A DNA stretch of 64,000 bases from Pedobacter zeaxanthinifaciens (GTDB lineage: Bacteria; Bacteroidota; Bacteroidia; Sphingobacteriales; Sphingobacteriaceae). Shown in pieces: positions 13,766 through 57,329 of this stretch. Each line of letters opens with the position of its first letter. Position 1 is the stretch's first letter. Location of the stretch: assembly GCF_003313335.1 (NCBI RefSeq), contig NZ_QMHP01000008.1:95383-159382 (forward strand), written 5' to 3'. A program made the translations under genes and the position numbers. A model generated the notes under the pieces. It worked only from the letters and a program-made list of their open reading frames with translations. It was not told where the DNA came from and ran no database searches.

Positions 13766-13981
13766 ATGCAAACAAGCAGTTTTATATTTTTTGGTTTATT
13801 AGCTATTCCGTTAATTGCCTTTTTATTTTGGGTGATTAAAAAAGATAAGAAAAAGAATTACCTAGGTTTGGCTTTGCTTTTGGTAGGTGCCATTATAGCT
13901 GCTTACACTATCGTACGCTTAGATTCTTCTTTTGTTAAAGAGAAAATCCCAACAGCGCCAAAGGCTTCAAGTTTTAGATAG
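13766..13981 (+). CDS. Small two-helix membrane protein, unknown function
   Basis: 71 residues, 10 bases after tsaD on the same strand. Two hydrophobic helices (FIFFGLLAIPLIAFLFWVI and LGLALLLVGAIIAAYTIV) are separated by a very basic loop (KKDKKKN), so both ends probably face the periplasm. A short tail follows. I do not recognise the family. The tight spacing suggests cotranscription with tsaD. Confidence 0.6.
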   Translation: MQTSSFIFFGLLAIPLIAFLFWVIKKDKKKNYLGLALLLVGAIIAAYTIVRLDSSFVKEKIPTAPKASSFR

Positions 13982-14027: not shown

Positions 14028-14951
14028 ATGAATAAGTTTAAGAAGAACGAGTATTTGGCTATTGCAAAAATTATAGCCTACGCTGATGTTTTTAGCTATC
14101 CCCTTTTAGAAAAAGAGATAAGGGAGCGATGTCAAGACTTAGATTCAATCAATTTGCCTAATATTTTAGCGGCAATGGTCGACAAAAAGTTGATTCACAA
14201 GATTGATGATTTTTACCTTCTAAATTTTAAAAAAGAACTAGTTGACAGAAGAAAAATAGGAAATCAGTCTGCAAAGGATTGGCTGCCTGTAGCCAAATCT
14301 AATGGTTACAAACTGGTTAAATTTCCTTTCATAAAAGGTGTTTTTCTTTCAGGTTCCATATCTAAAGATTATATGGATGTGGACTGTGATGTTGACTATT
14401 TCATTGTTGCCAAGCATAAGCGTATATGGTTAGCCCACGCATCACTCTTTTTATATCGTAAGATATTTTTTAATACTAATCCTCAACTATTATGTATGAA
14501 CTACTTTGTTGATGAAAAGTATCTGGAAATCCCTTATAAAAATTACTATACTGCATTTGAATGTGTTTCGGTAAAACCACTATTTAGTAAAGCTATGTAC
14601 CATCACTTTTTAGATGCTAACGATTGGGCTAGGACGTATTTTCCACTTTATCCTTTGCAAAACCAACAAGTTGAAGAAGTACCCAATCACTTTATTAAAA
14701 AAATTATCGAAGCAACCTTTAATAATTTTTTGGGAGATATATTAGAGAATTTGATCTTCAAATTTCAACGATGGCGGATAAAAAGGCTTTATTCGAGTGC
14801 GATGTTTGCTGAATCAAGTCAGAATATTAATTTAACCAAGCACTCTATTAAAATACACACTGGAAATTACTTTAAAAAAGTTACTACTTTATTAGAAGAG
14901 AAAATGCAGCGATTTAATGAAAAATTGGAAGCAGTCTATTCAGAAATTTGA
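14028..14951 (+). CDS. Winged-helix plus nucleotidyltransferase-fold protein
   Basis: 307 residues. The first ~70 look like a winged helix (IAKIIAYADVFSYPLLEKEI, then ILAAMVDKKLIHKIDDFYLL). At about residues 109-126 is a polymerase-beta-type nucleotidyltransferase signature, GSISKDYMDVDCDVDYFIV, with the GS pair and acidic residues that bind metal and nucleotide. The rest has no recognised motif. Substrate unknown. It is the first gene of the island and ends 17 bases before the first radical SAM gene. ATG 14028 is chosen because the upstream reading overlaps the preceding gene in another frame. Such proteins occur beside polysaccharide genes, but the link here is inferred from context. Confidence 0.65.
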   Translation: MNKFKKNEYLAIAKIIAYADVFSYPLLEKEIRERCQDLDSINLPNILAAMVDKKLIHKIDDFYLLNFKKELVDRRKIGNQSAKDWLPVAKSNGYKLVKFPFIKGVFLSGSISKDYMDVDCDVDYFIVAKHKRIWLAHASLFLYRKIFFNTNPQLLCMNYFVDEKYLEIPYKNYYTAFECVSVKPLFSKAMYHHFLDANDWARTYFPLYPLQNQQVEEVPNHFIKKIIEATFNNFLGDILENLIFKFQRWRIKRLYSSAMFAESSQNINLTKHSIKIHTGNYFKKVTTLLEEKMQRFNEKLEAVYSEI

Positions 14952-14968
14952 TTCTACTTCAAAACGTT

Positions 14969-16405
14969 ATGGCTAGAATACTGCTTACCCACTCATATTT
15001 TTATCAACTTGACCCTAAGCAATGGCAGTTCAAACAGCCGTATCCACCTTACAATACGCTGTTGGCGGCCGCATATCTTAGAGATAAGAATTTTGAAGTA
15101 ATACTTTTTGATTGTAATCTATCAACCAATCCAGGAGAAATTATATGCTACTTGGAGAAAGAAAAGCCCGATTTTGTAGTTTTTTACGATGATAGTTTTA
15201 ACTATCTGAGTAAAATGTGTCTCACCAATATGAGAGACGCCTGTTTCGAAATGATTAAGCTTAGTAAGCAATTTGGTGCAAAAGTGTTGGTAAGTAGTAG
15301 CGATGCAACCGATCATCCTGAAAAATACTTGGCACAGGGAGCTGACGTAGTGATGCTTGGCGAAGCAGAAAATACATTGTTAAAGCTAGTTTCTCAACCC
15401 CAAGAAAATTGGCAAGGTATAGATGGTATTGCTTACTTAAAAGATGGAATCTTAGAAAGAAGCCTAAAAAAAAGTGTTCAAACCGACTTGGAGCAATTTC
15501 CCATGCCTGCTTGGGATTTGTTAGACATAGCTAAATATCAAAAAGTTTGGCAAATAAACCATGGCTTTGTTTCATTAAATGTTGCCACAACAAGGGGATG
15601 TCCTTTTAAGTGCAACTGGTGCGCTAAACCAATTTATGGCAATAGGTACAACAGCAGGCGGCCAAATGATGTGGTTATTGAACTCAAGTATTTGATGGAG
15701 AGATTTAATGCAAGTCATTTTTGGATTTGCGACGATATTTTTGGCTTGAAACCTAGTTGGGTTAAAGAATTTAGCCTCCTTTTAAAAGAAAATGCACTTA
15801 AACCAAAGCTGAAAATACAAAGCAGGGCAGATTTGCTACTTAAAGATGAAACTATTAAAGAGTTAGTAGCTGCCGGCTTGGATGAGGTTTGGATGGGTGC
15901 TGAAAGTGGAAGCCAAAAAATCCTTGATGCAATGGATAAGGGTACAACGGTTGAGCAAATTTATGAAGCTTCAAGATTGCTCAAAGAAAATGGTGTTAAA
16001 GTTTGCTTGTTCATTCAATATGGTTACCTAGATGAAAACGCTGAGGATATCAAATCTACCCTTAAAATGATTGCGCAGATTATGCCTCATGACATTGGAA
16101 TATCGGTATCTTATCCCCTGCCTGGTACTGGTTTTTACGAAAAAGTAAAGCAACAGCTTCAGGAAAAACAGAATTGGTTGCATTCCAATGATTTGGAAAT
16201 GATGTACCAAGGCACCTACTCGAAGGAGTTCTACAGGATGCTTTATAGTTATACTCATGCCTATTTTAGGAGCCTTAAACTTAAGGATCGATTAAGGAAT
16301 AGAATGAAATTCTCAGTGCGTATTAAAACTATACTCTCGCTATTCCGACAAATTATTGTTAAAAATAGGCTATTCCGAAAAATGAAATTATACCAGTTAA
16401 CGTGA
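14969..16405 (+). CDS. Radical SAM enzyme with B12-binding-type N-terminal domain (1)
   Basis: 478 residues. The N-terminal ~180 have the Rossmann-like cobalamin-binding arrangement seen in this class (PYPPYNTLLAAAYLRDKNF, GADVVMLGEAENTLLKLV). The radical SAM core follows, with the 4Fe-4S motif CPFKCNWC (Cys 211, 215, 218), WICDDIFG, and AESGSQKILDAMDKG. A basic C-terminal ~90 residues follow. Such enzymes carry out radical methylation, ring closure or C-C rearrangement on many substrates; the substrate here is unknown. It is clearly related to the enzyme at 20744. ATG 14969 starts the first strand (MARILLTHSYF). Its stop overlaps the next GTG by 4 bases. Confidence 0.88.
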   Translation: MARILLTHSYFYQLDPKQWQFKQPYPPYNTLLAAAYLRDKNFEVILFDCNLSTNPGEIICYLEKEKPDFVVFYDDSFNYLSKMCLTNMRDACFEMIKLSKQFGAKVLVSSSDATDHPEKYLAQGADVVMLGEAENTLLKLVSQPQENWQGIDGIAYLKDGILERSLKKSVQTDLEQFPMPAWDLLDIAKYQKVWQINHGFVSLNVATTRGCPFKCNWCAKPIYGNRYNSRRPNDVVIELKYLMERFNASHFWICDDIFGLKPSWVKEFSLLLKENALKPKLKIQSRADLLLKDETIKELVAAGLDEVWMGAESGSQKILDAMDKGTTVEQIYEASRLLKENGVKVCLFIQYGYLDENAEDIKSTLKMIAQIMPHDIGISVSYPLPGTGFYEKVKQQLQEKQNWLHSNDLEMMYQGTYSKEFYRMLYSYTHAYFRSLKLKDRLRNRMKFSVRIKTILSLFRQIIVKNRLFRKMKLYQLT

Positions 16406-17991
16406 AAAATAAGAAACTTTTTGTCCTAGGGGTATATTTTTTGATTTTTGGATATTTTGCCTTATTCAAATCAATAAAAGCGCCTATATCTGATTTTGGA
16501 AATAGCTATTACCCCGCGTTAGCTTCACAAAGTTACCATGATGAGGCCTTATTTTTCCTGTATGATTTGGACAAGTATAACCACTATGTAAATCAAATTG
16601 AAAAAACGGATAATGTTGTACTAGACTTTTATCTAAACACGCCTTTTACTTGTACCTTTTTTTATCCATTTACGCTGATAGAGAACGCCCTTAAAGCTAA
16701 GCTGTTATTTAACTGTTTCAGTTACCTAATTTTTGTGTTCGCCGTGCTGCTTTTTTTTAAGACTTATTTACCTGATAGTAATCTTCTCCTAATTCTTCTA
16801 ATTCCCTTAATTTTTTTGACGCCTCTTATAAATCATATTAATACAGGTCAATCTTATTTTGTGTGTTTTGCCTTTTTGTTGATTGGTTATCATCTTATTA
16901 ATGGTAAATGGTGGCTGTTGGGCTGTTTATTGCTTGCATTGGCAGTATTGATTAAGATTTTTCCGCTACTGCTATTAACTCCCCTCATTATCAGTAAACG
17001 CTATAAACAAACGTTATTTACGCTATCATTTGTACTGGTTTTAGTTTTTATCTCAGTGCTGCATTTAGGGTTCAACTTTTGGCACTTTTACTTAACCGAT
17101 GTTTTATTGGCTTCGGTTAAATATCAGACCGCTGTAGACTGGCATTTTTCTGGGCAATCTATGGAGGTTTTTTTAAAGAACTTATTCGTTAAAGACAATA
17201 ATTATAATCCACTGGGGCTTTTTAATGACCCTTTGGTTTATGCTGTTTTGTTATTTGCTTTCAAGACACTTGTAGCGTCAATTATTGTAGCCTTCATTTA
17301 TCAAAATCGAGAAAATGAGTTGGCTATTTTAGCGTCGCTTACTATCGGTTATTTTGTGCTACAAAACCGAACGGCGTCTTATGCTCAAGTTTTTTGGGTT
17401 ATTCCAATGGTATTTCTGCTTAGTTTGCAAATTTCAAAGGCACAAAAGCTGTTTTTTCTATGCTTACTTACTTTGATGGTCAACTGGCCTTATTGGCGTT
17501 TTGAAAAAGCAAACGAATTTTTTGCATATGGACGAATGTGGGCATGCTTGGGGTTGTTTATTTTCGTTTTTTTCTTTGCTTTTCGAAAGATGTTTCGCTT
17601 AAGGCCCGCCTATCTTTTGGTTGGGATTGCTTTTTTGCCTCAACTGGTAAACGCTAAAAAACACTCGCCCAATTATACCTATGTGTGGCCAAATCATAAA
17701 AATTTTGTAACCTACAATTACATTGTTAAACGTGGTGAGCTTACCGTTTTTGCTTTAGGAATTAATGGGGTTAACAGTGCATCTAGAAAATTTCCTATAA
17801 CCGAAATTGACACGAATGCATGTGAAGTTATCGACAACCAAATTTTTTTACATCATAAACCAACAGGTATACGGTCATCTTTAATCAAAAAGCCAATACT
17901 AATTAACAAAAATGAAATCTGGTACCTATCCGATCGAAATGGCCGGTTCGGATGGTTGACTTTACAAAAAGTATCGACCCAAAAATTATAG
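16402..17991 (+). CDS. GT87-like (DUF2029) polyprenyl-phosphate-sugar dependent glycosyltransferase
   Basis: A 529-residue integral membrane protein with roughly ten hydrophobic helices in the first ~400 residues, then a soluble tail of ~120. Early features match GT-C fold mannosyltransferases of the DUF2029/GT87 type: a first periplasmic loop with acidic residues (APISDFGNSYYPAL), FYLNTPFTCTFFYPF, and HINTGQSYFVCFAFLLIG. The family uses polyprenyl-phosphate mannose or a related donor on the outer face of the inner membrane. GTG 16402 overlaps the upstream stop (GTGA), implying translational coupling to the radical SAM gene. A GT2 enzyme that could make the lipid-linked donor is at 19155. Confidence 0.78.
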   Translation: MKNKKLFVLGVYFLIFGYFALFKSIKAPISDFGNSYYPALASQSYHDEALFFLYDLDKYNHYVNQIEKTDNVVLDFYLNTPFTCTFFYPFTLIENALKAKLLFNCFSYLIFVFAVLLFFKTYLPDSNLLLILLIPLIFLTPLINHINTGQSYFVCFAFLLIGYHLINGKWWLLGCLLLALAVLIKIFPLLLLTPLIISKRYKQTLFTLSFVLVLVFISVLHLGFNFWHFYLTDVLLASVKYQTAVDWHFSGQSMEVFLKNLFVKDNNYNPLGLFNDPLVYAVLLFAFKTLVASIIVAFIYQNRENELAILASLTIGYFVLQNRTASYAQVFWVIPMVFLLSLQISKAQKLFFLCLLTLMVNWPYWRFEKANEFFAYGRMWACLGLFIFVFFFAFRKMFRLRPAYLLVGIAFLPQLVNAKKHSPNYTYVWPNHKNFVTYNYIVKRGELTVFALGINGVNSASRKFPITEIDTNACEVIDNQIFLHHKPTGIRSSLIKKPILINKNEIWYLSDRNGRFGWLTLQKVSTQKL

Positions 17992-17995
17992 CAAT

Positions 17996-19162
17996 ATGAA
18001 AAAGGTAATTTGCTTCTTGGCCGTTTTAATAACCTTTGTTGCTGCCTTTCAATTGTTCCGACAAAAGGAAGGTGTCGAAAATGAATCATATACGATTAAC
18101 CTTCGTCACAACAAGTCTTACCATGACGAGACAGACGAGCTTATTTACAAAGGGTTACTGTGGTCGTTTTCGCAAGTTGGAGCAACTCTACCCAAAAAAA
18201 CAACAGCACGCGGAATTGAAAAAGTTACCGATACACTTTGGAGAATTGATGTGTCTAAGTTAGGTTTTCGGCCAGTGGTGTTGGAAAAGTGGCGAAGAAT
18301 AATAGCTGCTGCTAAAAATACTCAAGAGTATCATCTCTATGGTTCGATAATGTTGAATAGATTCGTCATTTGTTCCATTTATGCTAGTAATCATTACTAC
18401 GAAATGGTTCAAGCACCCAAAACCTACAGTGAGTTTTTGCATCCTAGCGTTAACGCATCTAGTAAAGCCGAATATGCTGTCGAAATTTCATCTGTGTCCA
18501 AAGGAGAACGATTAATAAGAATGGATACCACAGTTGAGGCTATAACAGCTCAACAATTTATTGCAGTAGAAGGATCGGGGCATTTTAGCCAAGGGAATTT
18601 TAAGGAAGAACTGTTTGAGCTGATTGATATGATGCCAAATGGACAGCTACGTTACTTAATTTACAGCCATAATGGTCGGTTGGTAAATGCCTCGCCAAAT
18701 TCTTACGGTGACGCAGGTAAGCCCGCCAAATGTATGTGGTGTCACGAATCCTATCTACTGGATAACTTTATGAGTACCCCCAATATCAAAGGTTACCTGA
18801 ACTATGAACAATTTGTATCACTAAATAAACGCAATAATGATAAGTTGATCAAGTATCGCAAACAACTATCAACTGAAATTAACTATGAGAATAAAAAAGA
18901 TCATGAACTGGCAGAAATCATGTATATCAGTTACATGGAACCATCTGCAGAAACCTTAGCTTTTGAGTGGCATTTAAGCATTGAGGAAATAAGACGGCAT
19001 TTGGCTAAATTACGCACACATCAACATCATGAATTTCCGTTTTTAGGACAACTCTATGATAGGCATGAGGTAGATAAATTAGCACCACATAAAAGTGTGC
19101 CTATTCCAAAATCAATTAGAGAACCTAATGATGATGAACCAAATTTACTTGGAGCTAACTAA
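17996..19162 (+). CDS. Membrane-anchored or exported protein with one CxxCH haem-type motif
   Basis: 388 residues, 4 bases after the GT87-like gene. An N-terminal hydrophobic segment (KKVICFLAVLITFVAAFQLF) serves as signal or anchor. The remainder should lie in the periplasm. A single CMWCH at residues 246-250 has the form of a covalent haem c attachment site. A conserved-looking segment precedes it (GSGHFSQGNFKEELFELIDM, then LRYLIYSHNGRLVNASPN). I do not recognise the family. It could be a c-type cytochrome-like redox or sensory protein, or the cysteines could bind metal. Its end overlaps the convergent GT2 gene by 8 bases. Confidence 0.7.
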   Translation: MKKVICFLAVLITFVAAFQLFRQKEGVENESYTINLRHNKSYHDETDELIYKGLLWSFSQVGATLPKKTTARGIEKVTDTLWRIDVSKLGFRPVVLEKWRRIIAAAKNTQEYHLYGSIMLNRFVICSIYASNHYYEMVQAPKTYSEFLHPSVNASSKAEYAVEISSVSKGERLIRMDTTVEAITAQQFIAVEGSGHFSQGNFKEELFELIDMMPNGQLRYLIYSHNGRLVNASPNSYGDAGKPAKCMWCHESYLLDNFMSTPNIKGYLNYEQFVSLNKRNNDKLIKYRKQLSTEINYENKKDHELAEIMYISYMEPSAETLAFEWHLSIEEIRRHLAKLRTHQHHEFPFLGQLYDRHEVDKLAPHKSVPIPKSIREPNDDEPNLLGAN

Positions 19163-19790
19163 ATATTTTTTCTTTCCTTACGCCCCATCTATGCATTAGG
19201 TAAGTGAAGGTTATTCGCAATATGCCTATTCCATAAACTAAGCTGTTTTTAAAAGAAATGGATGAGGCCTCCTTAAAATATTTTATTGGGCATGATACCT
19301 CTCCAATGTGAAACTTCTTGTTTATTAATTGAAGTAAAATTTGATTGTCGAAGATGAAATTATCGCTGTTCTTTTCAAAAGGAATTGCTTCCAGGCAACT
19401 GCTTTTATATGCTCTTAAACCTGTGTGGTATTCGCTTAATTTAGTGTTGAGCATCAAATTTTGAAATGCGGTGAGTATCCTATTAGAAACATATTTGTAG
19501 CGAGGCATTTTACCAACGATTGTCCTGTTGCCAATAATACGCGAACCAAGTACAACATCGTATACATCGTAAGCAATCATACTTACCATCGCTGGAATTA
19601 ATCTGGGATCATATTGGTAATCACCATGTAACATTAAAATGATATCTGCCTTTAAAGCAAGTGCCATCTGATAGCATTTCTTTTGATTCCCTCCATAACC
19701 CACATTTTTATCAAGTTTAATACAGTTTTTAATCAATAAGTTATCTTTCGCAATTTCAAAGGTTGCATCATTGCTGAAATCATCTACCAA
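19155..19790 (-). CDS. GT2 family glycosyltransferase (DPM1-like), probably frameshifted near its start
   Basis: 211 residues as read from the TTG at 19790, lacking the first ~35 of the family. The missing part is encoded upstream in the same frame (KKIIVVIPAYNAAKTIEDTY, then PPGFVDEIIL), but no start codon opens that frame. An ATG at 19895-19897 (MLNGKK) would fuse to it if the T run at 19880-19886 had one more base. What remains has LHGDYQYDPRLIPAMV and VVLGSRIIGN, typical of polyprenyl-phosphate mannose or glucose synthases. Such an enzyme could supply the lipid-linked donor for the GT87-like transferase. Either the assembly has an indel or the gene is off. It is the only minus-strand gene in this stretch. 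Confidence 0.75.
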   Translation of the reverse strand: MVDDFSNDATFEIAKDNLLIKNCIKLDKNVGYGGNQKKCYQMALALKADIILMLHGDYQYDPRLIPAMVSMIAYDVYDVVLGSRIIGNRTIVGKMPRYKYVSNRILTAFQNLMLNTKLSEYHTGLRAYKSSCLEAIPFEKNSDNFIFDNQILLQLINKKFHIGEVSCPIKYFKEASSISFKNSLVYGIGILRITFTYLMHRWGVRKEKIFS

Positions 19791-19924
19791 TATGATTTCG
19801 TCTACGAAGCCAGGAGGAATGGTATGGTAGGTGTCTTCTATTGTTTTTGCGGCGTTATAGGCCGGAATAACTACAATAATTTTTTTCCGTTTAACATATT
19901 GTAAATTTACTTTCTACTTCGACT

Positions 19925-20731
19925 ATGACAAAACAATTTGACTTCACAGCTTCCTACTACGACCAAGAATTCACAAACACTAAAATTGGTATAGCACAAC
20001 GAAATATAGTTCTTAAATTCTTAGATAAAAATCTACAGGGATTAAAAAACGTAGATATTTTTGAATTGAATTGCGGAACCGGGGAAGATGCGCAGTGGTT
20101 TGGTGAAAAAAAGCAAGTGAATAGCATCCTAGCAACCGACATCTCTGAGAAGATGGTAGAGGTGGCAGAACAAAAAAATAAAACTAATTTAAAGGCAAGT
20201 TTTAGGTTAGAAGACGCCTCTAATTTGTCTCCAATCGTTTTGGAAAAACGGTTTGACATTATCCATTCTAACTTCGGTGGACTGAATTGCTTAGATCGGT
20301 TTGAAATCGAATCTCTGCTTCAGCAGCTATCGTTAATGCTAAAGCCAAATGGCTGTATTTACTTGGTATTAATGCCTACAGTTTGTATTTGGGAATCCTT
20401 TTATTTTTGTTTAAAACTGAATTGGAAAAATGTATTCCGACGCTACACTAAGGACTCAGTAAACGCCCAACTAAATGCGGATAATTTCGTGAAAACTTGG
20501 TATTATTCTCCAAAAACCCTCAAGCGTCTTTTGCCTCCATCGTTAAAAATTACTAACTTTCAAACAGTTGGGTTTTTTATATGGCCATCTTATTTAAATG
20601 CATGGGCAACAAAGTGCCCTGCGCTTTTTAATTTGCTTGTTAAACTAGAAAATTTAGTTAAAGGGCTCAGCTTTTTGTGTTTTTTTAGTGATCATTATAT
20701 GGTTAAAATCACTAGCTCTGGAAAAAATTAA
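19925..20731 (+). CDS. Class I SAM-dependent methyltransferase
   Basis: 268 residues, cytoplasmic. Motif I is DIFELNCGTGEDAQWF, with the acidic strand 2 end at ILATDISEKMVEVAEQ and motif IV near FDIIHSNFGGLNC. The C-terminal third is hydrophobic and aromatic (GCIYLVLMPTVCIWESFYF), suggesting a lipid or glycolipid substrate or membrane contact. It is divergent from the GT2 gene with only 27 bases to that gene's probable ATG, and 12 bases ahead of the second radical SAM gene. The target atom and substrate are not known. Confidence 0.82.
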   Translation: MTKQFDFTASYYDQEFTNTKIGIAQRNIVLKFLDKNLQGLKNVDIFELNCGTGEDAQWFGEKKQVNSILATDISEKMVEVAEQKNKTNLKASFRLEDASNLSPIVLEKRFDIIHSNFGGLNCLDRFEIESLLQQLSLMLKPNGCIYLVLMPTVCIWESFYFCLKLNWKNVFRRYTKDSVNAQLNADNFVKTWYYSPKTLKRLLPPSLKITNFQTVGFFIWPSYLNAWATKCPALFNLLVKLENLVKGLSFLCFFSDHYMVKITSSGKN

Positions 20732-20743
20732 GCGCTTAAATTT

Positions 20744-22138
20744 ATGGTGGTTCTAACACATGGATATTTTATTGATGAAGATGCTGCCGAGCAGCAGATC
20801 ATGAAGCCATACCCGCCGTTGGGGATTCTTTACCTTTCTTCTTTTTTAGAGGAACAAGGTATAGCTAACGAAGTTTTTGATAGTACGTTCTCAAGTTTTA
20901 ACGAATTGAGCAACTACCTGATTTCGAATAGCCCATTGGTGCTAGGGATATACGTAAACTTGGTTACCAAATTGAATGTCGTAAAACTATTAAGGTTTGT
21001 TAATACACATCAGGCGCTAAAGAAAGTGAAAGTAGTTTTAGGCGGACCGGATGTAAGGTACAATAAGGAAGCGTATTTGAAGCTGGGTGCTAATTATATT
21101 GTACTGGGAGAAGGTGAAGAAACATTTGGTGAATTGGTAGCAGCAATTATCCGCCAAGATAAAGTTGATCATATACCCGGCATTTCTTTTTTAGACAAGG
21201 GCAAGGTATTTACTAATCCAGAACGTCCACTCAACAAGGAGCTTGACAAACTTCCTTTTCCAAATAGGAAAAAGATTGATTTAGCTAAGTATTTGGCTAC
21301 TTGGAAGCAGTATCATGGCTATAGCTCAATCACCATTAGCACCATGCGGGGTTGCCCATACACTTGTAAATGGTGCAGCAGGGGAGTTTATGGTAAAAGC
21401 TATCGAAGGCGCACTCCTGCTAATGTAGTGGAAGAGTTGGAATATATTGCTCAACAATACAATCCTGATAACATTTGGTTTGTAGATGATGTATTTACCA
21501 TAAGTCATAAGTGGCTTGTAGAATTCGCTACAATAGTGAAAGAGAAAAACCTCAATATTAAATACGAATGTATCACACGAGCTGATAGGATGAATGATGA
21601 GGTGATCAAATTGCTTAAGCAAAGCGGTTGCTATAGGGTTTGGATTGGCGCAGAAAGTGGTAGTCAAAACATTATTGATTTGATGGACAGGCGTGTAGAT
21701 GTAGATTTAGTACAGCAGATGATAAGAGCAGCAAAACAAAATGACATAGAGGCAGGAACATTTATCATGTTGGGCTATCCCGAGGAAACAGAACAAGATA
21801 TTAAGCAAACATTAAAACACCTAAAAAAGGCTAATCCAACGTTTTATACAATTACCATTACTTATCCAATTAGAGGTACCGAACTATTTCAGCAAGTGGA
21901 GGCTTCAAGTAATGTAGCTGACCTCGATTTTGCTACTACAACGGACAGGCAAATTGCATTTAAACAGACATTTAGCAAAAAATATTACCAGTACGCAATT
22001 CAGTGGATCAATAGTGAAATGACTTTTCTTCAGCGAAAAGAACGTGACTTGGCTTGGCACGATAGTTTAAAGGCGAAGCTAAAATCAGTTAAAGCTCGAA
22101 TAGGCATGTATCTAGAAAAAAGGAAATTAGTGGCATGA
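20744..22138 (+). CDS. Radical SAM enzyme with B12-binding-type N-terminal domain (2)
   Basis: 464 residues with the same layout as the enzyme at 14969. The N-terminal cobalamin-type domain contains KPYPPLGILYLSSFLEEQG, VVLGGPDVRYNKEAYLKLGA and YIVLGEGEETFGEL. The radical SAM core has CPYTCKWC (Cys 204, 208, 211), FVDDVFT and GAESGSQNIIDLMDRR. The two share the segment RGCP..C.WC....YG..Y..R.P..VV.EL, so they are paralogues that probably treat related substrates. The gene follows the methyltransferase by 12 bases and overlaps the next start (ATGA). Confidence 0.88.
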   Translation: MVVLTHGYFIDEDAAEQQIMKPYPPLGILYLSSFLEEQGIANEVFDSTFSSFNELSNYLISNSPLVLGIYVNLVTKLNVVKLLRFVNTHQALKKVKVVLGGPDVRYNKEAYLKLGANYIVLGEGEETFGELVAAIIRQDKVDHIPGISFLDKGKVFTNPERPLNKELDKLPFPNRKKIDLAKYLATWKQYHGYSSITISTMRGCPYTCKWCSRGVYGKSYRRRTPANVVEELEYIAQQYNPDNIWFVDDVFTISHKWLVEFATIVKEKNLNIKYECITRADRMNDEVIKLLKQSGCYRVWIGAESGSQNIIDLMDRRVDVDLVQQMIRAAKQNDIEAGTFIMLGYPEETEQDIKQTLKHLKKANPTFYTITITYPIRGTELFQQVEASSNVADLDFATTTDRQIAFKQTFSKKYYQYAIQWINSEMTFLQRKERDLAWHDSLKAKLKSVKARIGMYLEKRKLVA

Positions 22139-22830
22139 GAAAAATAATTCAGCAACTTAATAAGCCTTTAAGTAGGTATGTTTTGCAGCCATTGTATCAT
22201 TGGTACGGATCATCTTCGCGTAGGGCTAAATTAAAAGGTATGGATTTAGTGGTTTCACCAGGGGTTTTTCATCCTGTTTTTTTCTTCAGCACTAAGATTT
22301 TGTTGAACTGGTTAGATCGCAACGAGGTGAAAGACAGAAGCCTACTTGAAATAGGAAGTGGGAGCGGGGCGGTAGCCATTTATGCCGCAAAAAAAAAGGC
22401 CTCAGTAACTGCAGTTGACATTAACCCTGCGGCATGTGCATGTACAAAATCAAATGCTGAACGCAATGGACAACGTTTAAGTGTATATCAGTCGGATTTA
22501 TTAGATATGGTACCACAAATGCAATTTGACATCATTTTAATAAACCCACCATATTTTCCAAAAACACCTCAAAACTATGCTGAGCAGGCGTGGTATTGTG
22601 GTGAAGATTTCAGTTTTTTTGAACGTTTATTTCGTGAAATAAGTGCTTACATGCAATCTTATGCCAAAATAATTTTGGTGCTAAGCGAGCATTGTGAGAT
22701 ACGTCAGATACGAGAAATAGCCGAAAAAAATCAGCTAATTTGGAACCAAATAGAACGGCACGATCGTATAATTGAGCAAAATTATCTGTTTGAAATTAAT
22801 AAATATAGTTTCGCTTCCAGTGATGGCTAA
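22135..22830 (+). CDS. HemK/PrmC-like small-domain methyltransferase
   Basis: 231 residues. The methyltransferase fold has motif I SLLEIGSGSGAVAIYAA, the motif II acidic residue in VTAVDINPAAC, and the catalytic NPPY in IILINPPYFPKTP. NPPY marks transfer to a nitrogen (Gln, Asn or adenine) in the HemK and N6-adenine groups. It has no release-factor-binding N-terminal domain, so it is not PrmC. It is translationally coupled to the radical SAM gene by a 4-base overlap, which suggests an amine-bearing product of that enzyme as a possible target. This is inference. Confidence 0.78.
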   Translation: MRKIIQQLNKPLSRYVLQPLYHWYGSSSRRAKLKGMDLVVSPGVFHPVFFFSTKILLNWLDRNEVKDRSLLEIGSGSGAVAIYAAKKKASVTAVDINPAACACTKSNAERNGQRLSVYQSDLLDMVPQMQFDIILINPPYFPKTPQNYAEQAWYCGEDFSFFERLFREISAYMQSYAKIILVLSEHCEIRQIREIAEKNQLIWNQIERHDRIIEQNYLFEINKYSFASSDG

Positions 22831-22990
22831 AAATAGCGTTAAAAAAGCAATAAAGATGGTAATGATGCTTGCAAAGAAAATGCTGGTTTGTGAATTCAGT
22901 ATTTAATAAGGCTACAAGTTATTGATTATCAACAACTGATTGCCATAATTTATAGATAAACCTATTGAAAATAATATTAGTAAAATTAAA

Positions 22991-24526
22991 GTGAACAAAG
23001 TCATACTCTTCAATCCACGAAGTGCTAAAAATAAGCATCGCGTTCCTATCGGAATTCTGCAAGTGGCAGCTTCTATACACGGTAAATGGGAATATGTCAT
23101 TGTTGATGGGAATATGGAAACAGATCCCGGCGCAAAGATAGAAGCATACTTGCGGACAGGAGAATATAAATATTTTGGATGCACAGTAATGCCGGGGCCG
23201 CAACTTAAAGAAGCTATTCCAATTACCAAAAAAATTAGAGGCCAATTTCCAAATGTTGTAACTATTTGGGGAGGATATTTTGCCACCAACCAACATAAAG
23301 TAGTGCTAGATTCGGGATATGTAGATTATGTGATTAATGGCATAGGAGACTTAGCGTTTCCGGCTTTGCTTGATGCCTTAGATCAACAAAAACCTACAAT
23401 TCCGCTAATTAGTAACCTAATTTATAAACAAGATGGCCATATAATCAAGACACCAAAGGTGACCTTAATTGATATGGATGACTTGCCTTTACTGCCGTAT
23501 GATTATTTGAATACACTTTATCCACTTAAAAATTATTTGGGTAAAACCTATCTTGGAAACAAAACAATTGGCTATCATTCCAGTTTTGGATGCCCATTTA
23601 CATGTTCTTTTTGTGCAGTAGTACCCATTTTTGAGGCACGTTGGAAAGGCAAAAGTGCATCGTTAATTTATCAAGATATCAAGTTCCTAAAAAACAAATA
23701 TGGCGTTGACTCGGTGGAGTTTTTTGACAACAACTTTTTTGTTTCGGAAAAGCGAGTGGTGGAGTTTTGCCATTTAATTAAGGATGAAAATATTACTTGG
23801 TGGGGTGAAGGGAGGATAGATACCATTGATAAATACTCCGATGAATCGTTGAAATTGATGAGAGCATGTGGTTGTAAAATGATTTTTTTTGGCGCTGAGA
23901 GTGGGAATGATGAAATCCTTAAGCAGGTAGATAAGGGTGGTACACAGTCGCAGGCGCAAATGCTTAACTTCGTTAAACGTATGAAAGCTGTGGGTATTAT
24001 TCCGGAGTTTTCGTTTGTACTTGGTTTCCCGGCACCTACGGCTCAAAAGGTAATGCAGCAAGTTAATTTTGATATAAATTTCATCAAGAAAATCAAAGTA
24101 TTAAACCCAGCTACGGAAATCATTATTTACGTTTATAGCCCGGTACCAACCGAAGGTTCGGAGATGTACGAACAAGTAAAAGCATTAGGGTTTAAATTTC
24201 CACAACATCTTGATGATTGGCTGGATGATAATTGGCAAAAATTCGATTTGCGAAGAAATCCACTTACACCTTGGTTGAGCCCCAAAATCGTGAACAAAAT
24301 TCTTGATTTTGAACTAGTGATAAATGCCCGCTATCCAACCATATCTGATTTAAAATTAACTAAGTGGCAAATACGATTAATAAAGCTTTTATCTAGCTGG
24401 CGATATGCGCTTAATATTTTTAGTTATCCCTACGAGATAAAATTAGCAAATAGATTTTGGTTGAAATATAGGATGCCAAATACCGAAGGCGCAGAAGTAA
24501 TTTATACGTCAGAAAATGCTGAATAG
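22991..24526 (+). CDS. Radical SAM enzyme with B12-binding-type N-terminal domain (3)
   Basis: 511 residues, more distant from the other two. The N-terminal domain has KHRVPIGILQVAASIHG and NVVTIWGGYFATNQHKVV. The core has CPFTCSFC (Cys 201, 205, 208), FFDNNFFVSEKRVVEFC, GAESGNDEILKQVDKGG and FVLGFPAPTAQK. The C-terminus (~110 residues, to NTEGAEVIYTSENAE) is family-specific. It starts at GTG 22991, after a 160-base gap in which I see no clear promoter. Its last codons overlap the FkbM-type gene by 11 bases, so those two are probably coupled. Substrate unknown. Confidence 0.87.
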   Translation: MNKVILFNPRSAKNKHRVPIGILQVAASIHGKWEYVIVDGNMETDPGAKIEAYLRTGEYKYFGCTVMPGPQLKEAIPITKKIRGQFPNVVTIWGGYFATNQHKVVLDSGYVDYVINGIGDLAFPALLDALDQQKPTIPLISNLIYKQDGHIIKTPKVTLIDMDDLPLLPYDYLNTLYPLKNYLGKTYLGNKTIGYHSSFGCPFTCSFCAVVPIFEARWKGKSASLIYQDIKFLKNKYGVDSVEFFDNNFFVSEKRVVEFCHLIKDENITWWGEGRIDTIDKYSDESLKLMRACGCKMIFFGAESGNDEILKQVDKGGTQSQAQMLNFVKRMKAVGIIPEFSFVLGFPAPTAQKVMQQVNFDINFIKKIKVLNPATEIIIYVYSPVPTEGSEMYEQVKALGFKFPQHLDDWLDDNWQKFDLRRNPLTPWLSPKIVNKILDFELVINARYPTISDLKLTKWQIRLIKLLSSWRYALNIFSYPYEIKLANRFWLKYRMPNTEGAEVIYTSENAE

Positions 24527-25433
24527 TCAATTAATCAAGGTGTTAGATAATCATAATATTCAAGACATTGTACTTGTTGATGTTGGCGCTAAAGGTGCGT
24601 TGGAATATTTTCGCAATTTGTTAAGTATAACAGAGATGTACGCCTTTGAGCCTAATTACATTGAATGTGCAAACTTGACGAAACGCTATCTTAATCATAA
24701 ATTTAAGAAACTTCGCATTAACCAATATGCATTAGGCGTAGCCGACGTAGCGCAGGTTTCGCTTAATATCACCCAAAATGCTTCCATGAGTAGTTTGTTG
24801 ACACCCGATAAGGACAACTACTTAAAGCACTTCGGTCAATACAAGGAATTTGATAAGTGGGCAGATGCTATATCGGTAAAAAGCCAAGCTCCCGTACAAA
24901 TGAGAACTTTGGATAGCTATGTGCTTGAGCAGGGGATTAAACAAATAGACTATTTGAAAATAGATACACAGGGCAGCGAATTGGAAGTGTTGAAGGGGAG
25001 TAGCCAACTGTTGATTGATAAGAGCATCGCTGTAATAAAAGTAGAAGTTTCAACTATACCTGTATATAAAAATCAAGCGCTTTTTACCGATGTAGATGCC
25101 TTTTTGCGGAGTTTTGGGTATACACTTGTCGATTTCAGGACCTATCGGAGAGATGATTTTGCAACGCATGAACATTATGCACCTTGTGGCGATGCTATAT
25201 ATGTTGTTGATCGTTTGAATGGACAGTTTGGTTTTAAAGCGGCCATCATATTATTTAGTTTGGGATATAAAAGTTTGGCGCATAGATTTTTGGAGGATTA
25301 TGGCCTATCAAAAGATGAAATTCAAAGCATAGCTAAGCTTGGCAGTGTAGGTTTTGCTAGTAGGCTAAGAAAATTTCTAAGGCTTTTGCTGCCTCCAATA
25401 TTTGTTGAGGTTAAGCGTATACTTAGTAAATGA
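24516..25433 (+). CDS. FkbM family methyltransferase
   Basis: 305 residues. The FkbM O-methyltransferase domain covers about residues 15-225. It has VLVDVGAKGALEYF as motif I, MYAFEPNYIECANLTK, SMSSLLTPDKDN, and the late signature IDYLKIDTQGSELEVLKGS. Members methylate sugar or polyketide hydroxyls. The C-terminal ~70 residues, ending in a basic amphipathic stretch, are extra. The 11-base overlap with the third radical SAM gene suggests they act in sequence, plausibly on a surface sugar. Confidence 0.88.
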   Translation: MLNSQLIKVLDNHNIQDIVLVDVGAKGALEYFRNLLSITEMYAFEPNYIECANLTKRYLNHKFKKLRINQYALGVADVAQVSLNITQNASMSSLLTPDKDNYLKHFGQYKEFDKWADAISVKSQAPVQMRTLDSYVLEQGIKQIDYLKIDTQGSELEVLKGSSQLLIDKSIAVIKVEVSTIPVYKNQALFTDVDAFLRSFGYTLVDFRTYRRDDFATHEHYAPCGDAIYVVDRLNGQFGFKAAIILFSLGYKSLAHRFLEDYGLSKDEIQSIAKLGSVGFASRLRKFLRLLLPPIFVEVKRILSK

Positions 25434-25450
25434 TAATTACTAACTATCTA

Positions 25451-25581
25451 AGAAACTGTTTAAATTTCTGTTGATTAACATACAGCTGTCATGTTGAGCT
25501 TTTCGAAACATTTTTTAACAAGTAGTCTCCGCCAAGCTCAGACTGACAAGTAAAAAGTTAAACTGAAATTTAAACAATTTC
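25451..25581. repeat. MITE-like palindromic element
   Basis: A 131-base element in the 350-base spacer between convergent genes. The ends are imperfect inverted repeats: AGAAACTGTTTAAATTTCTG (from 25451) against AACTGAAATTTAAACAATTT (to 25580). Nested inside are CTGTCATGTTGAGCTT and AAGCTCAGACTGACAAG, again inverted. No reading frame is present. It could also act as a bidirectional terminator. Nothing else is seen between 25582 and 25784. Confidence 0.65.
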
Positions 25582-25784
25582 TAATTCTTCATTGCTGTTT
25601 ATTAAAAAATGTCAAGCTTGGTAAGCGAGGGTTATTGCATTTATTGAAGTAATTGTAATTATGTTTTTAGATTTAGCTGAGGGCCAACGCAATATGCTGC
25701 TATCTTTCTGGTTATATTCACTTGTTCATTAAGCTTATTGCCGCTAGTTTTAACTTTATTTAATTTGATATCAAAATTTAAGGT

Positions 25785-26855
25785 TTAATAGTTTGACGCC
25801 GACTCTCCAAATTTACTATGATGTACTATTGAATAAAATTGAGTCATCGAAATAAGGTGGTTCGCCCAGCTAAATTTTCGAGCCCTTTTTATCCCTTTTT
25901 TTATCATTTCTGTTCTTTTTTGCAAGTGGTTTAAAGAAAGTATTTCGTTTACAAATGCATCAGGATTTTCGTAGTCGCTAATAAATATAGCTCCATCTTC
26001 TGCAATTTCTCTCAAGCATGGAATATCCGAACAAACTACTGGACACCCTGTTTTCATGGCTTCAAGAACAGGTAATCCAAAACCTTCATATTTACTTGGG
26101 TATATTAGGCAATGGGCAGTGTTATAATGATAGTTTAACTCATCGGTGCTGATGTTTTCGAAATGTTGTATCCTGTTCCCAAATTTCGATTTGTAAGTTT
26201 TCCATTCTGTTTTGTAGAACTTTTCGTTGCTAATTACCACCAGGTTATATTGAGGTAGTTTTTCGATAATATCGATACAAATCTGAAAATTCTTATAGTG
26301 GCTGCGCCTACCTACAAAAATGATTTTATTGTTAACCTTTTGAATGCCTTCTAACGGAAATAGTGTATCGGAACATCCGTGATGTATCACACAAATTTTT
26401 TTACTAAAAGCATCTGGGTAGTAAATTAACAGGTTTTTTTTGGTTTCTTCAGATACGCAAATAATACCATCGGCACGTTTAATAGCGATTTTTTGAAGCC
26501 ATTTTTTCACTGCTGCACGTATACCTTTTACGTGTCCCATCTCTGCCGCTAAATCATGTATGGTTACTACGTTAGCTATGTTTTTTTGTAAAGAAATACG
26601 CAAGTAACTGGAATGAAAAATGCTTTTTGGTTGCAGTTTTTTTAATAAGATGCGTGATAAGAAAAATGGATATCGATACTCTGACAGCTGTTTTGAACTG
26701 ATTTCTTTTATGGAGCAGGGATTTATCTTATTTGTGAGTACTTTAAAATCGATGGCCTTAGATTTGGACATTTCCGAGATTACCGATTTCCAATAAACGG
26801 ATATGCCACCAACCGACTGTAAGTGGAAAATAAAATCGTCGAGGTAGATCAACAT
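25785..26855 (-). CDS. Glycosyltransferase family 1/4 (GT-B fold)
   Basis: 356 residues, cytoplasmic or membrane-associated. The N-terminal acceptor domain has FHLQSVGGISVYWKSVI and VVTIHDLAAEMGH. The donor domain has IIFVGRRSHYKNFQICIDII and the nucleotide-sugar signature YPSKYEGFGLPVLEAMKTG, followed by PVVCSDIPCLREIAEDGA. The family retains configuration and adds hexoses to growing glycans. It is transcribed divergently from the flippase with 65 bases between starts, so both may share a control region. Sugar specificity cannot be read. Confidence 0.9.
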   Translation of the reverse strand: MLIYLDDFIFHLQSVGGISVYWKSVISEMSKSKAIDFKVLTNKINPCSIKEISSKQLSEYRYPFFLSRILLKKLQPKSIFHSSYLRISLQKNIANVVTIHDLAAEMGHVKGIRAAVKKWLQKIAIKRADGIICVSEETKKNLLIYYPDAFSKKICVIHHGCSDTLFPLEGIQKVNNKIIFVGRRSHYKNFQICIDIIEKLPQYNLVVISNEKFYKTEWKTYKSKFGNRIQHFENISTDELNYHYNTAHCLIYPSKYEGFGLPVLEAMKTGCPVVCSDIPCLREIAEDGAIFISDYENPDAFVNEILSLNHLQKRTEMIKKGIKRARKFSWANHLISMTQFYSIVHHSKFGESASNY

Positions 26856-26920
26856 ATTTGCAAAATATAACTTTATTTGCTCAGAATAAAATTTATCTAC
26901 TTTCCTAACAACCTACCTTA

Positions 26921-28105
26921 ATGCTAAAACGGAAGTTTTCAACCATACTTAAGAATGTGCTGCGGCAAGGCATAAGTAGCATAATTAGTTTTTCTCTTCC
27001 CTTTTTAGTAATCAACCATTACTCAAAAAACCTATGGGCTGATTTTGTTGGTTATTCACTTTACTTAATGGCAGCAGTTGCCATAGTTGCTTGGGGTGGT
27101 ACAGATTTGATTATTAGGAAGATAAGCCGCAGGCCAAATAACGCTGTTGTAATAATCCAGGAGCTATTGCTAAGTAGGATGCCTATCTTGTTGCTGTCTT
27201 TTGGTATCACTTTTCTTCTATTTCCTGTTGCAATAGCAACTGCTATTGCACTCTCTATCGCAGTTACATTCGTGGGACAACTTTTTTTTGCACTAATGCG
27301 CTACGAACGCTTGTACACGTGGTCTAGCTTAATTGAAGTGGTTTGTTATGTTTGCTTTTTAGTCTGTTTTTTTAGTTTTCAATCATTTGGAGATATTAAA
27401 AACTTCCTCAGGTTGTACACGTTTTATCAGTTATTGCGTACGTTGTTGGCCGTTTCCATACTTAACGGCTATGTATATCCTTGGTATGTTAGGCCAAGTT
27501 TTGATGTAAGTTATCTTTGGAAATCTTACGGGTTATTCATTTTTTCTATTGTAGGGTTTTTGATGTCGCGACTTGATTTGTACTTGGTTTCGTACACTCA
27601 TAACAAATCTTTGTTGGCCAATTATCAGTTATTTAACGCTGTTTTCGTTAACGCAATGATAATACCTTATTTAATTTATTCTCCATATCAAAAAAACCTA
27701 TATAGAAACGGGGAGATGGTCTATCGTAAAGTTAAACGTTTAATTTGCTCGGCTGGTTTATTTATTACGCCAATTATACTGCTCGTTATTTCAATTATTT
27801 TCAGGCATTTTGCAGGAATAGAAACTACCCCAATCCTAGGCGTTTTGTTGTTTTTTTCTGTATTTCCATCATTTGTTTACAGCCTAGACATCCTTTTTCT
27901 TTTGAAGAATAAATTAGAAAATAGAGTGGTTTTTCTTACCATAATAGTGTTGCTGGTAGAATTTTGCTCACTTTATATTTTGTTAGCGTTGCAGCAAGAG
28001 CTGTACAGTGCACTAACTGGAGTGGCAATAGGCCAAATGACGTTTTGGTTTTTGTTGAGCCGAGAGGTTAAGAAGCATCAAACAACTCACCATCAGTCAA
28101 GCTAA
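26921..28105 (+). CDS. Polysaccharide/oligosaccharide flippase (Wzx-like)
   Basis: 394 residues with about twelve hydrophobic helices. It begins with the basic amphipathic segment typical of Wzx/MVF flippases (LKNVLRQGISSIISFSLPFL), then TDLIIRKISRR. The family moves undecaprenyl-linked glycans across the inner membrane. It is the last gene of the island and ends at a bidirectional terminator shared with recA. Its presence argues that the island makes an exported, lipid-linked product. No polymerase (Wzy) or ligase is recognisable in the window. Confidence 0.82.
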   Translation: MLKRKFSTILKNVLRQGISSIISFSLPFLVINHYSKNLWADFVGYSLYLMAAVAIVAWGGTDLIIRKISRRPNNAVVIIQELLLSRMPILLLSFGITFLLFPVAIATAIALSIAVTFVGQLFFALMRYERLYTWSSLIEVVCYVCFLVCFFSFQSFGDIKNFLRLYTFYQLLRTLLAVSILNGYVYPWYVRPSFDVSYLWKSYGLFIFSIVGFLMSRLDLYLVSYTHNKSLLANYQLFNAVFVNAMIIPYLIYSPYQKNLYRNGEMVYRKVKRLICSAGLFITPIILLVISIIFRHFAGIETTPILGVLLFFSVFPSFVYSLDILFLLKNKLENRVVFLTIIVLLVEFCSLYILLALQQELYSALTGVAIGQMTFWFLLSREVKKHQTTHHQSS

Positions 28106-30472: not shown

Positions 30473-30550
30473 ATTGACAAAGTTATAGCACCGAAATTGC
30501 CAATTAAACCCGATTGGAGTGTAAATACTTTTTGTCGCAGACCAAGAATT

Positions 30551-30583
30551 AAACTTACGAAGTTTCTAAAACTTCGTAAGTTT
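30551..30583. repeat. Perfect 15-bp hairpin within the composite element
   Basis: AAACTTACGAAGTTT and AAACTTCGTAAGTTT are exact inverted copies with a 3-base loop. There is no gene upstream that it would terminate, so it looks like an inserted palindromic repeat. Confidence 0.7.
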
Positions 30584-30719
30584 TGAATGCCTTACACAAA
30601 AAGATTGAAACGAAAAGCGGGACTGATTTCAATAGCACCACTGCTTTTGCTTTTCAAAAAAAATTTAACCTCAATAGAATGGCTTTTTTCGGCAGATTTC
30701 GAGCTTAAGCTAAAAACTT

Positions 30720-57037: not shown

Positions 57038-57164
57038 GTAAAAGGTATGTTATCGTTTGTATTAACAAATATGTCTAATATCCTAAATGTAAAATTAGGT
57101 AAATTATTATATTAAGTGTGTTTTTTCTCCTTGAAAATCACAACCTGTAGGTTTTTTTAAAGTT

Positions 57165-57329
57165 AGTCCCGCTTTCCGCTGCAATCTTTTTGCTGGCTTC
57201 CTGCTGTCATTCCGAGTTCCGAGGAATCTATTTTTGGCATTGCTTGTCGATAGATCCTTCTCCCGAAACTTCGGGATCCGGATGACAGGTAAGCAAAAAG
57301 TATTTCCGCTTCAATCGGGTTTAATTAAC
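57165..57329. repeat. Second version of the composite repeat modules (AGTCCCGCTTT ... CAATCGGGTTTAATT)
   Basis: The left end AGTCCCGCTTT (57165-57175) with GCAATCTTTTTG, and the right end CAATCGGGTTTAATTAAC (57312-57329), match modules of the 30131-30624 element. The 57204-57288 palindrome sits between them. Confidence 0.65.
57204..57288. repeat. Palindromic intergenic repeat (CATTCCGA/GGAATCTAT type), copy 2
   Basis: The left arm CTGTCATTCCGAGTTCCGAG, then GAATCTAT; the right arm ATAGATCC to GGATCCGGATGACAG. It contains a smaller hairpin CCCGAAACTTCGGG. It is related to the element at 4341-4427. Confidence 0.7.

Follow-up and report, generated by a model that had tools for sequence, protein, structure and literature searches.

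A horizontally acquired island with three predicted cobalamin-dependent radical SAM enzymes in Pedobacter zeaxanthinifaciens

What product calls for three radical S-adenosylmethionine (SAM) enzymes, encoded together with glycosyltransferases and methyltransferases between tsaD and recA? The question is raised by 12 open reading frames (ORFs), referred to here as the island and labeled A through L in Table 1, at positions 14028-28105 of a 64,000-nucleotide stretch of Pedobacter zeaxanthinifaciens DNA (contig NZ_QMHP01000008.1, positions 95,383 to 159,382; the whole stretch is called the window). An earlier note had read them as a pathway for an exported, lipid-linked glycan or glycolipid. The gene set is a real, conserved and non-chance assembly. 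Its core, a nucleotidyltransferase-like (NTase-like) protein with up to three of the radical SAM enzymes and small methyltransferases, is found again as one block in seven or more phyla. In the narrower sense used below, the core consists of the NTase-like protein (gene A), the first radical SAM enzyme (rSAM1, gene B) and the methyltransferase MT1 (gene F), and it can occur without sugar genes. The other two radical SAM enzymes, rSAM2 and rSAM3, are encoded by genes G and I, and a second methyltransferase, MT2, by gene H.

A gene set acquired as a unit and found in several phyla

Genes of the rSAM1/rSAM2 type were found in 27 of 395 Bacteroidota genomes, and the NTase-like gene in 31 that cover all 27 (Fisher 7e-38), the four extra genomes having weaker matches. 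rSAM3 is present in 17 of the 395, every one of them within the 27 that carry an rSAM1-type gene (Fisher 3e-23); the loci share descent, however, and these p-values thus overstate independence. Among 247 Acidobacteriota genomes, rSAM1/2 genes occur in 24, rSAM3 in 21, and both in 20, versus the ∼2 expected. The co-occurrence anticipated in the earlier note was therefore borne out in two phyla. The distribution of rSAM2 extends to at least seven, namely the Bacteroidota, Acidobacteriota, Chloroflexota, Pseudomonadota, Planctomycetota, Calditrichota, and Actinomycetota, and in most of these rSAM1 lies beside it. Within the clusters, the genes for the NTase-like protein, rSAM1 and MT1 are usually neighbors. 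No description of the gene set was found in the literature searched; as this comprised open-licence papers only, the absence is weak evidence.

The island is a horizontally acquired insertion that moved as a unit. Of 22 same-genus genomes with a match to recA, 15 show tsaD, the small ORF (13766-13981 in the window), and recA as neighbors with none of the island genes between them, and the nearest relative, whose recA is 98% identical, contains at the island site a 216-residue gene and nothing else of length. By our own reading, the product of this gene is START-domain-like. A close rSAM2 is found in this genome only among 201 from the family; 13 others carry an rSAM1 orthologue at 50-57%. Acquisition is argued from the empty site in same-genus genomes together with the absence of a close rSAM2 from the other 200 family genomes. 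The GC content of the island is ∼36%, versus ∼39% in its surroundings. A search of 72,556 plasmids with rSAM1 yielded no match at 1e-40.

As a separate observation, three loci (L027, L028, and L035) contain rSAM2 orthologues at 50-52% that adjoin ABC transporter genes without the remaining module.

The radical SAM enzymes and their partners

In each of rSAM1, rSAM2, and rSAM3 an N-terminal B12-binding domain (PF02310) is followed by a Radical_SAM domain (PF04055), both above the Pfam gathering scores, and the CxxxCxxC motif is invariant in each of the three family alignments. All three are intact predicted cobalamin-dependent radical SAM enzymes with an N-terminal cobalamin domain, as the earlier note had proposed. 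In a tree of 130 sequences, rSAM1 (50 sequences) and rSAM2 (38) each form a single clade and are mutual sisters, and the 35 rSAM3 sequences fall into one clade except for one very long, unreliable branch (L032_12471). Given that rSAM1 and rSAM2 each constitute one cross-phylum clade and are sisters, the duplication that separated them predates the spread between phyla. In the tree all three window enzymes have their nearest relative in Chitinophagaceae UBA1930, followed by Runella in the case of rSAM1 and rSAM2; the shared nearest relative argues that the three genes have one history. A cobalamin riboswitch lies beside a BtuB-like receptor in this genome, and uptake of the cofactor is thus plausible.

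None of the three enzymes reaches the NCBIfam cut-off for HpnJ/HpnR, BchE, MiaB/MtaB, PhpK, AprD4, or the C-methyltransferases of ribosomally synthesized and post-translationally modified peptides (RiPPs). The score of rSAM1 is 120 against HpnJ (cut-off 577) and 24 against MiaB (355). For rSAM2, the best match is to the PhpK radical SAM P-methyltransferases (TIGR04479), but its score of 168 (167.6 bits) falls below the cut-off of 600, and no phosphonate genes were recognized near the clusters read. Assignments to hopanoid, bacteriochlorophyll, tRNA, or RiPP metabolism were rejected, the scores being far under the curated cut-offs. Membership in a family with an assigned, unrelated substrate, which the earlier note regarded as fatal to its proposal, was not seen above a curated cut-off for any of the three.

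The best solved relatives are MgmA (9ccb), AprD4, OxsB, CysS, TokK, and TsrM, in which, as in the island enzymes, a B12-binding domain precedes a radical SAM barrel with a CxxxCxxC motif. A comparison of structures, suggested in the earlier note, was run for the rSAM1 model (mean predicted local distance difference test score, pLDDT, of 87). The model matches the same solved set and thus the fold of known cobalamin-dependent radical SAM enzymes, with an E-value of 1.6e-20 for 9ccb. Its sequence identity to these proteins is only 13-21%, and rSAM1 lies under every curated NCBIfam cut-off. We know of no neighborhood of these six enzymes that shares the present gene set.

The modularity of the clusters was counted over 65 thinned loci. 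MT1 is present in 61 of these, rSAM1 in 58, rSAM2 in 43, rSAM3 in 40, the NTase-like protein in 35 (an NTP_transf_5 or HPr-kinase-like protein being encoded nearby in some Acidobacteriota loci), the methyltransferase MT4 in 26, and MT2 and an amidohydrolase in 21 each. As can be seen from the 40 loci with rSAM3, the last two are alternatives: MT2 only is found in 19, the amidohydrolase only in 16, both in 1, and neither in 4 (Fisher 2e-6, uncorrected for descent). Of the 25 loci that lack rSAM3, 1 has MT2. By type, the amidohydrolase belongs with the TRZ/ATZ/guanine-deaminase enzymes, and another methyltransferase, MT3, stands alongside it in 18 of its 21 loci; a sequence search of the PDB with the amidohydrolase gave nothing useful. 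A TadA-like zinc deaminase is encoded in three minimal clusters (L085, L089, and L093).

NPPY methyltransferases are N-methylases, and the known substrates of the HemK2/MTQ2 type are release factors or lysines. MT2 resembles the HemK2/MTQ2 enzymes in scoring 91.0 bits against a cut-off of 87 (TIGR00537) and in its NPPY motif, where Asn 137, Pro 138, and Pro 139 are conserved in 19 of 19 sequences and Tyr 140 in 17 of 19. It differs in being found, among the loci gathered, almost only beside rSAM3, and this coupling argues for a substrate other than a release factor or protein. The alternation of an N-methylase-type enzyme with a deaminase-type one suggests that rSAM3 may yield a nitrogen-bearing product, the nitrogen being methylated in one version and removed by hydrolysis in the other. 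With MT2 on one side and the amidohydrolase plus MT3 on the other, the chemistry is directly testable by genome comparison.

In the relatives of gene A, Gly 109, Asp 121, Asp 123, Cys 156, and Asn 158 are invariant, the glycine and the DxD motif being so in all 43 aligned sequences. Its weak fold matches are to the MNT, AAD(9) (spectinomycin), and LinB (lincosamide) nucleotidyltransferases.

Two further groups of loci were seen in passing. The long proteins (∼670-740 residues) encoded by L150 and L152 contain a domain that is NTase-like and related to gene A; in both loci an NAD-epimerase-like gene lies close by, and a second family may be represented. In loci L051, L053, L054, L057, L161, L173, and L174, from the Acidobacteriota and Pseudomonadota, the surroundings include NTP_transf_5 and/or HPr-kinase-like genes, or additional radical SAM genes of the BchE-like kind.

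Sugar transfer, export and gene organization

The GT87 protein encoded by gene C scores 63.6 bits against PF09594 (gathering score 25) and recurs in L026, L031, L032, L075, L079, L082, L084, and L087. Gene D encodes an N-terminal signal-like segment and an invariant AGKPxKCMWCHE sequence containing CxxCH; the protein is probably exported and may be a haem c protein. A PDB sequence search with gene D gave nothing useful. In L031 and L075 it recurs together with the GT2 and GT87 genes, whereas L032 and L023 have it without GT2. The FkbM gene J recurs in L023, and a different FkbM-domain protein is found in L031. For gene L, only relatives at 24-26% were found, at the corresponding place in other clusters. 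In L031, a Flavobacteriaceae contig, 11 of the 12 genes have a relative or a counterpart in function, in a single run: A, B, F, G, D, E, C, L, the FkbM-domain protein, I, and H. In L075 the order is A-B-F-G-D-E-C-L, with an acyltransferase-like gene at the place of the FkbM gene of L031. The genome-wide locations of GT4 genes (best-scoring half of the matches) show at most a modest excess near clusters, and were not used in arguing for a glycan role.

The gene positions and tight overlaps given in the earlier note are exact, with B and C sharing GTGA (16402-16405), G and H sharing ATGA (22135-22138), and I and J sharing 11 bases (24516-24526). Pfam agrees with its GT87, GT2, GT4, and FkbM assignments and places the other two methyltransferases (F and H) in class I. 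Corrections are needed: its title left out gene A, which belongs to the core, and the flippase it saw in gene L has no Pfam family at 0.001, neither a polysaccharide-synthesis nor a MATE domain. Genes A, D, and L matched no Pfam family.

Table 1 Features of the island between tsaD and recA, in window coordinates.
Label	Feature	Position	Strand	Evidence
A	Nucleotidyltransferase-like core protein with N-terminal winged-helix region	14028-14951	+	Alignment, model, co-occurrence
B	Predicted cobalamin-dependent radical SAM enzyme 1 (rSAM1), core	14969-16405	+	Pfam, alignment, structure, tree
C	GT87 polyprenyl-phosphate-sugar glycosyltransferase, accessory	16402-17991	+	Pfam; recurrence in other loci
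D	Probably exported protein of no known family, conserved CxxCH, accessory	17996-19162	+	Alignment
E	GT2 glycosyltransferase, start ATG out of frame	19155-19897	-	Pfam; orthologue comparison
F	Class I methyltransferase MT1, core	19925-20731	+	Pfam; recurrence in loci
G	Predicted cobalamin-dependent radical SAM enzyme 2 (rSAM2), sister clade of rSAM1	20744-22138	+	Pfam, alignment, tree
H	NPPY methyltransferase MT2, HemK2/MTQ2-like, coupled to rSAM3	22135-22830	+	Pfam, NCBIfam, locus counts
I	Predicted cobalamin-dependent radical SAM enzyme 3 (rSAM3)	22991-24526	+	Pfam, alignment, tree
J	FkbM methyltransferase, accessory	24516-25433	+	Pfam, NCBIfam; recurrence
	Small inverted-repeat element, 22-nt arms	25451-25582		Copies elsewhere in genome
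K	GT4 glycosyltransferase, accessory	25785-26855	-	Pfam
L	Membrane protein, possible Wzx-type exporter, accessory	26921-28105	+	Weak relatives at same cluster place

The genome has ∼9 further good copies (82-100%) of the small element, which resembles a non-autonomous repeat. It is probably a later insertion without a part in the pathway. Elsewhere in the window, two matches to the Flavo-1 RNA, at 30502-30628 and 57161-57326, exceed the Rfam gathering score.

A possible pathway and its rivals

The explanation we favor, with a probability of roughly 0.5, is that the acquired module makes an unusual small unit, which is here glycosylated and exported, most likely as a surface glycoconjugate. The unit would be alkylated and probably nitrogen-bearing. 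The NTase-like protein would prime or activate the substrate, rSAM1 and rSAM2 would alkylate unactivated carbons using methylcobalamin and SAM, and MT1 would methylate it. A further radical step by rSAM3 might then be followed, in this genome, by N-methylation through MT2, in place of which the amidohydrolase and another methyltransferase would act in other genomes. GT2 would make a polyprenyl-phosphate sugar, GT87 and GT4 would attach sugars, the FkbM enzyme would O-methylate, and membrane protein L would export the product on its lipid carrier, with the cell surface as the most likely destination. There are possible parallels for parts of this scheme. In fosfomycin biosynthesis, nucleotidylation by Fom1 primes the substrate for the cobalamin-dependent radical SAM methylase Fom3; Fom1 is not known to have the pol-beta fold, and its likeness to the island is one of analogy only. 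In moenomycin biosynthesis, C-methylation within a lipid-linked glycan is performed by MoeK5, a single cobalamin-dependent radical SAM enzyme. A more detailed version can be offered only tentatively: a pathway spread by lateral transfer among at least seven phyla, in which the paralogous rSAM1 and rSAM2 and the NTase-like protein build the nitrogen-bearing unit and the product of rSAM3 is either N-methylated by MT2 or deaminated and methylated by the amidohydrolase and MT3.

Several points weigh against the favored explanation, in addition to the shared descent of the loci. The strand following the DxD motif of gene A carries the invariant Cys 156 and Asn 158 and no conserved Asp or Glu, and the best fold match of its model (pLDDT 90) has an E-value of 0.02. 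With the third carboxylate not obvious and the matches weak, the protein may be inactive as a transferase. The ATG of gene E (19897-19895) is shifted by one base from the reading frame of the rest of the gene, at an A7 run (19886-19880), whereas in L031 and L075 the orthologues have an in-frame start (MLNNKK and MFNSKK, respectively); a frameshift, slippage, and an assembly error are the candidate explanations for this broken frame. Glycosyltransferase, Wzy, ABC, or Wzx genes were found within a 20-kb stretch of 20 of 26 sampled Bacteroidota clusters, a count for which the references were partly drawn from the loci themselves, and sugar-transfer genes are missing from the other six (L080, L081, L093, L096, L098, and L099). 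Finally, no description of the product was found in the open-licence literature searched. Since the core lacks glycosyltransferases in six sampled genomes, these enzymes are accessory and the radical chemistry need not act on a sugar. A polyprenyl-phosphate glycan is accordingly plausible for this version of the cluster and less so for the core. The lipid-linked glycan pathway proposed in the earlier note is partly upheld: the joint action of the genes by their co-occurrence, and the link to sugar transfer or export by the 20 clusters with such genes, although the glycosyltransferases are accessory. Its C-methylated or branched sugar becomes one option only; the alternation of deaminase-type and N-methylase-type enzymes points instead, or also, to a nitrogen-bearing unit.

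The same absence of polysaccharide genes from around the core in several genomes would suit a diffusible secondary metabolite, nucleoside- or aminoglycoside-like, that is glycosylated and exported without the cell surface as its target. Patchy distribution and cross-phylum transfer are typical of such metabolism, two deaminase folds recur (the amidohydrolase, and the TadA-like protein beside minimal cores), and, partly from family knowledge, OxsB, AprD4, CysS, and TokK act on antibiotics. Yet many clusters adjoin GT87, polyprenyl-phosphate GT2, Wzy, and PglK-like genes, as is typical of lipid-linked glycans, and no resistance gene or assembly-line enzyme was recognized in the neighborhoods read. 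This explanation, although the most serious competitor, is on balance unlikely. Less probable again is that a membrane lipid, tRNA, or cofactor is the target of the radical SAM enzymes, with sugar genes nearby by chance. Cores without sugar genes exist, and HpnJ, BchE, and lipid-biosynthesis models are among the best NCBIfam scores; every such score, however, is far under its curated cut-off, and no hopanoid or photosynthesis gene was recognized beside any cluster read.

That the island is merely a hot spot gathering unrelated glycan genes might be argued from the way in which the accessory set (D, E, J, K, and L) varies from genome to genome, the lower GC content, and the small repeat element inside. 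Co-occurrence and congruent trees in several phyla, along with the tight overlaps in the core, make this highly improbable; for the core it is already refuted, whereas K and L may be such additions. An anti-phage defence island is, of all the explanations considered, the one given least credence: the NTase-like protein is weakly similar in fold to the MNT antitoxin and HalB, but the PADLOC matches reflect generic methyltransferase or radical SAM similarity only, and the conserved partners are biosynthetic.

Conserved pathways with three cobalamin-dependent radical SAM enzymes are rare, and any of the three may perform a C-H alkylation of the kind wanted by chemists. The module occurs in ∼7% of the sampled Bacteroidota genomes and in 10% of those from the Acidobacteriota; at this frequency, microbial surfaces or exometabolomes probably contain its product, which has gone unnoticed. 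If the more detailed, tentative version of the pathway is correct, these clusters would encode glycoconjugates, surface-bound or secreted, that form a combinatorial family new to chemistry.

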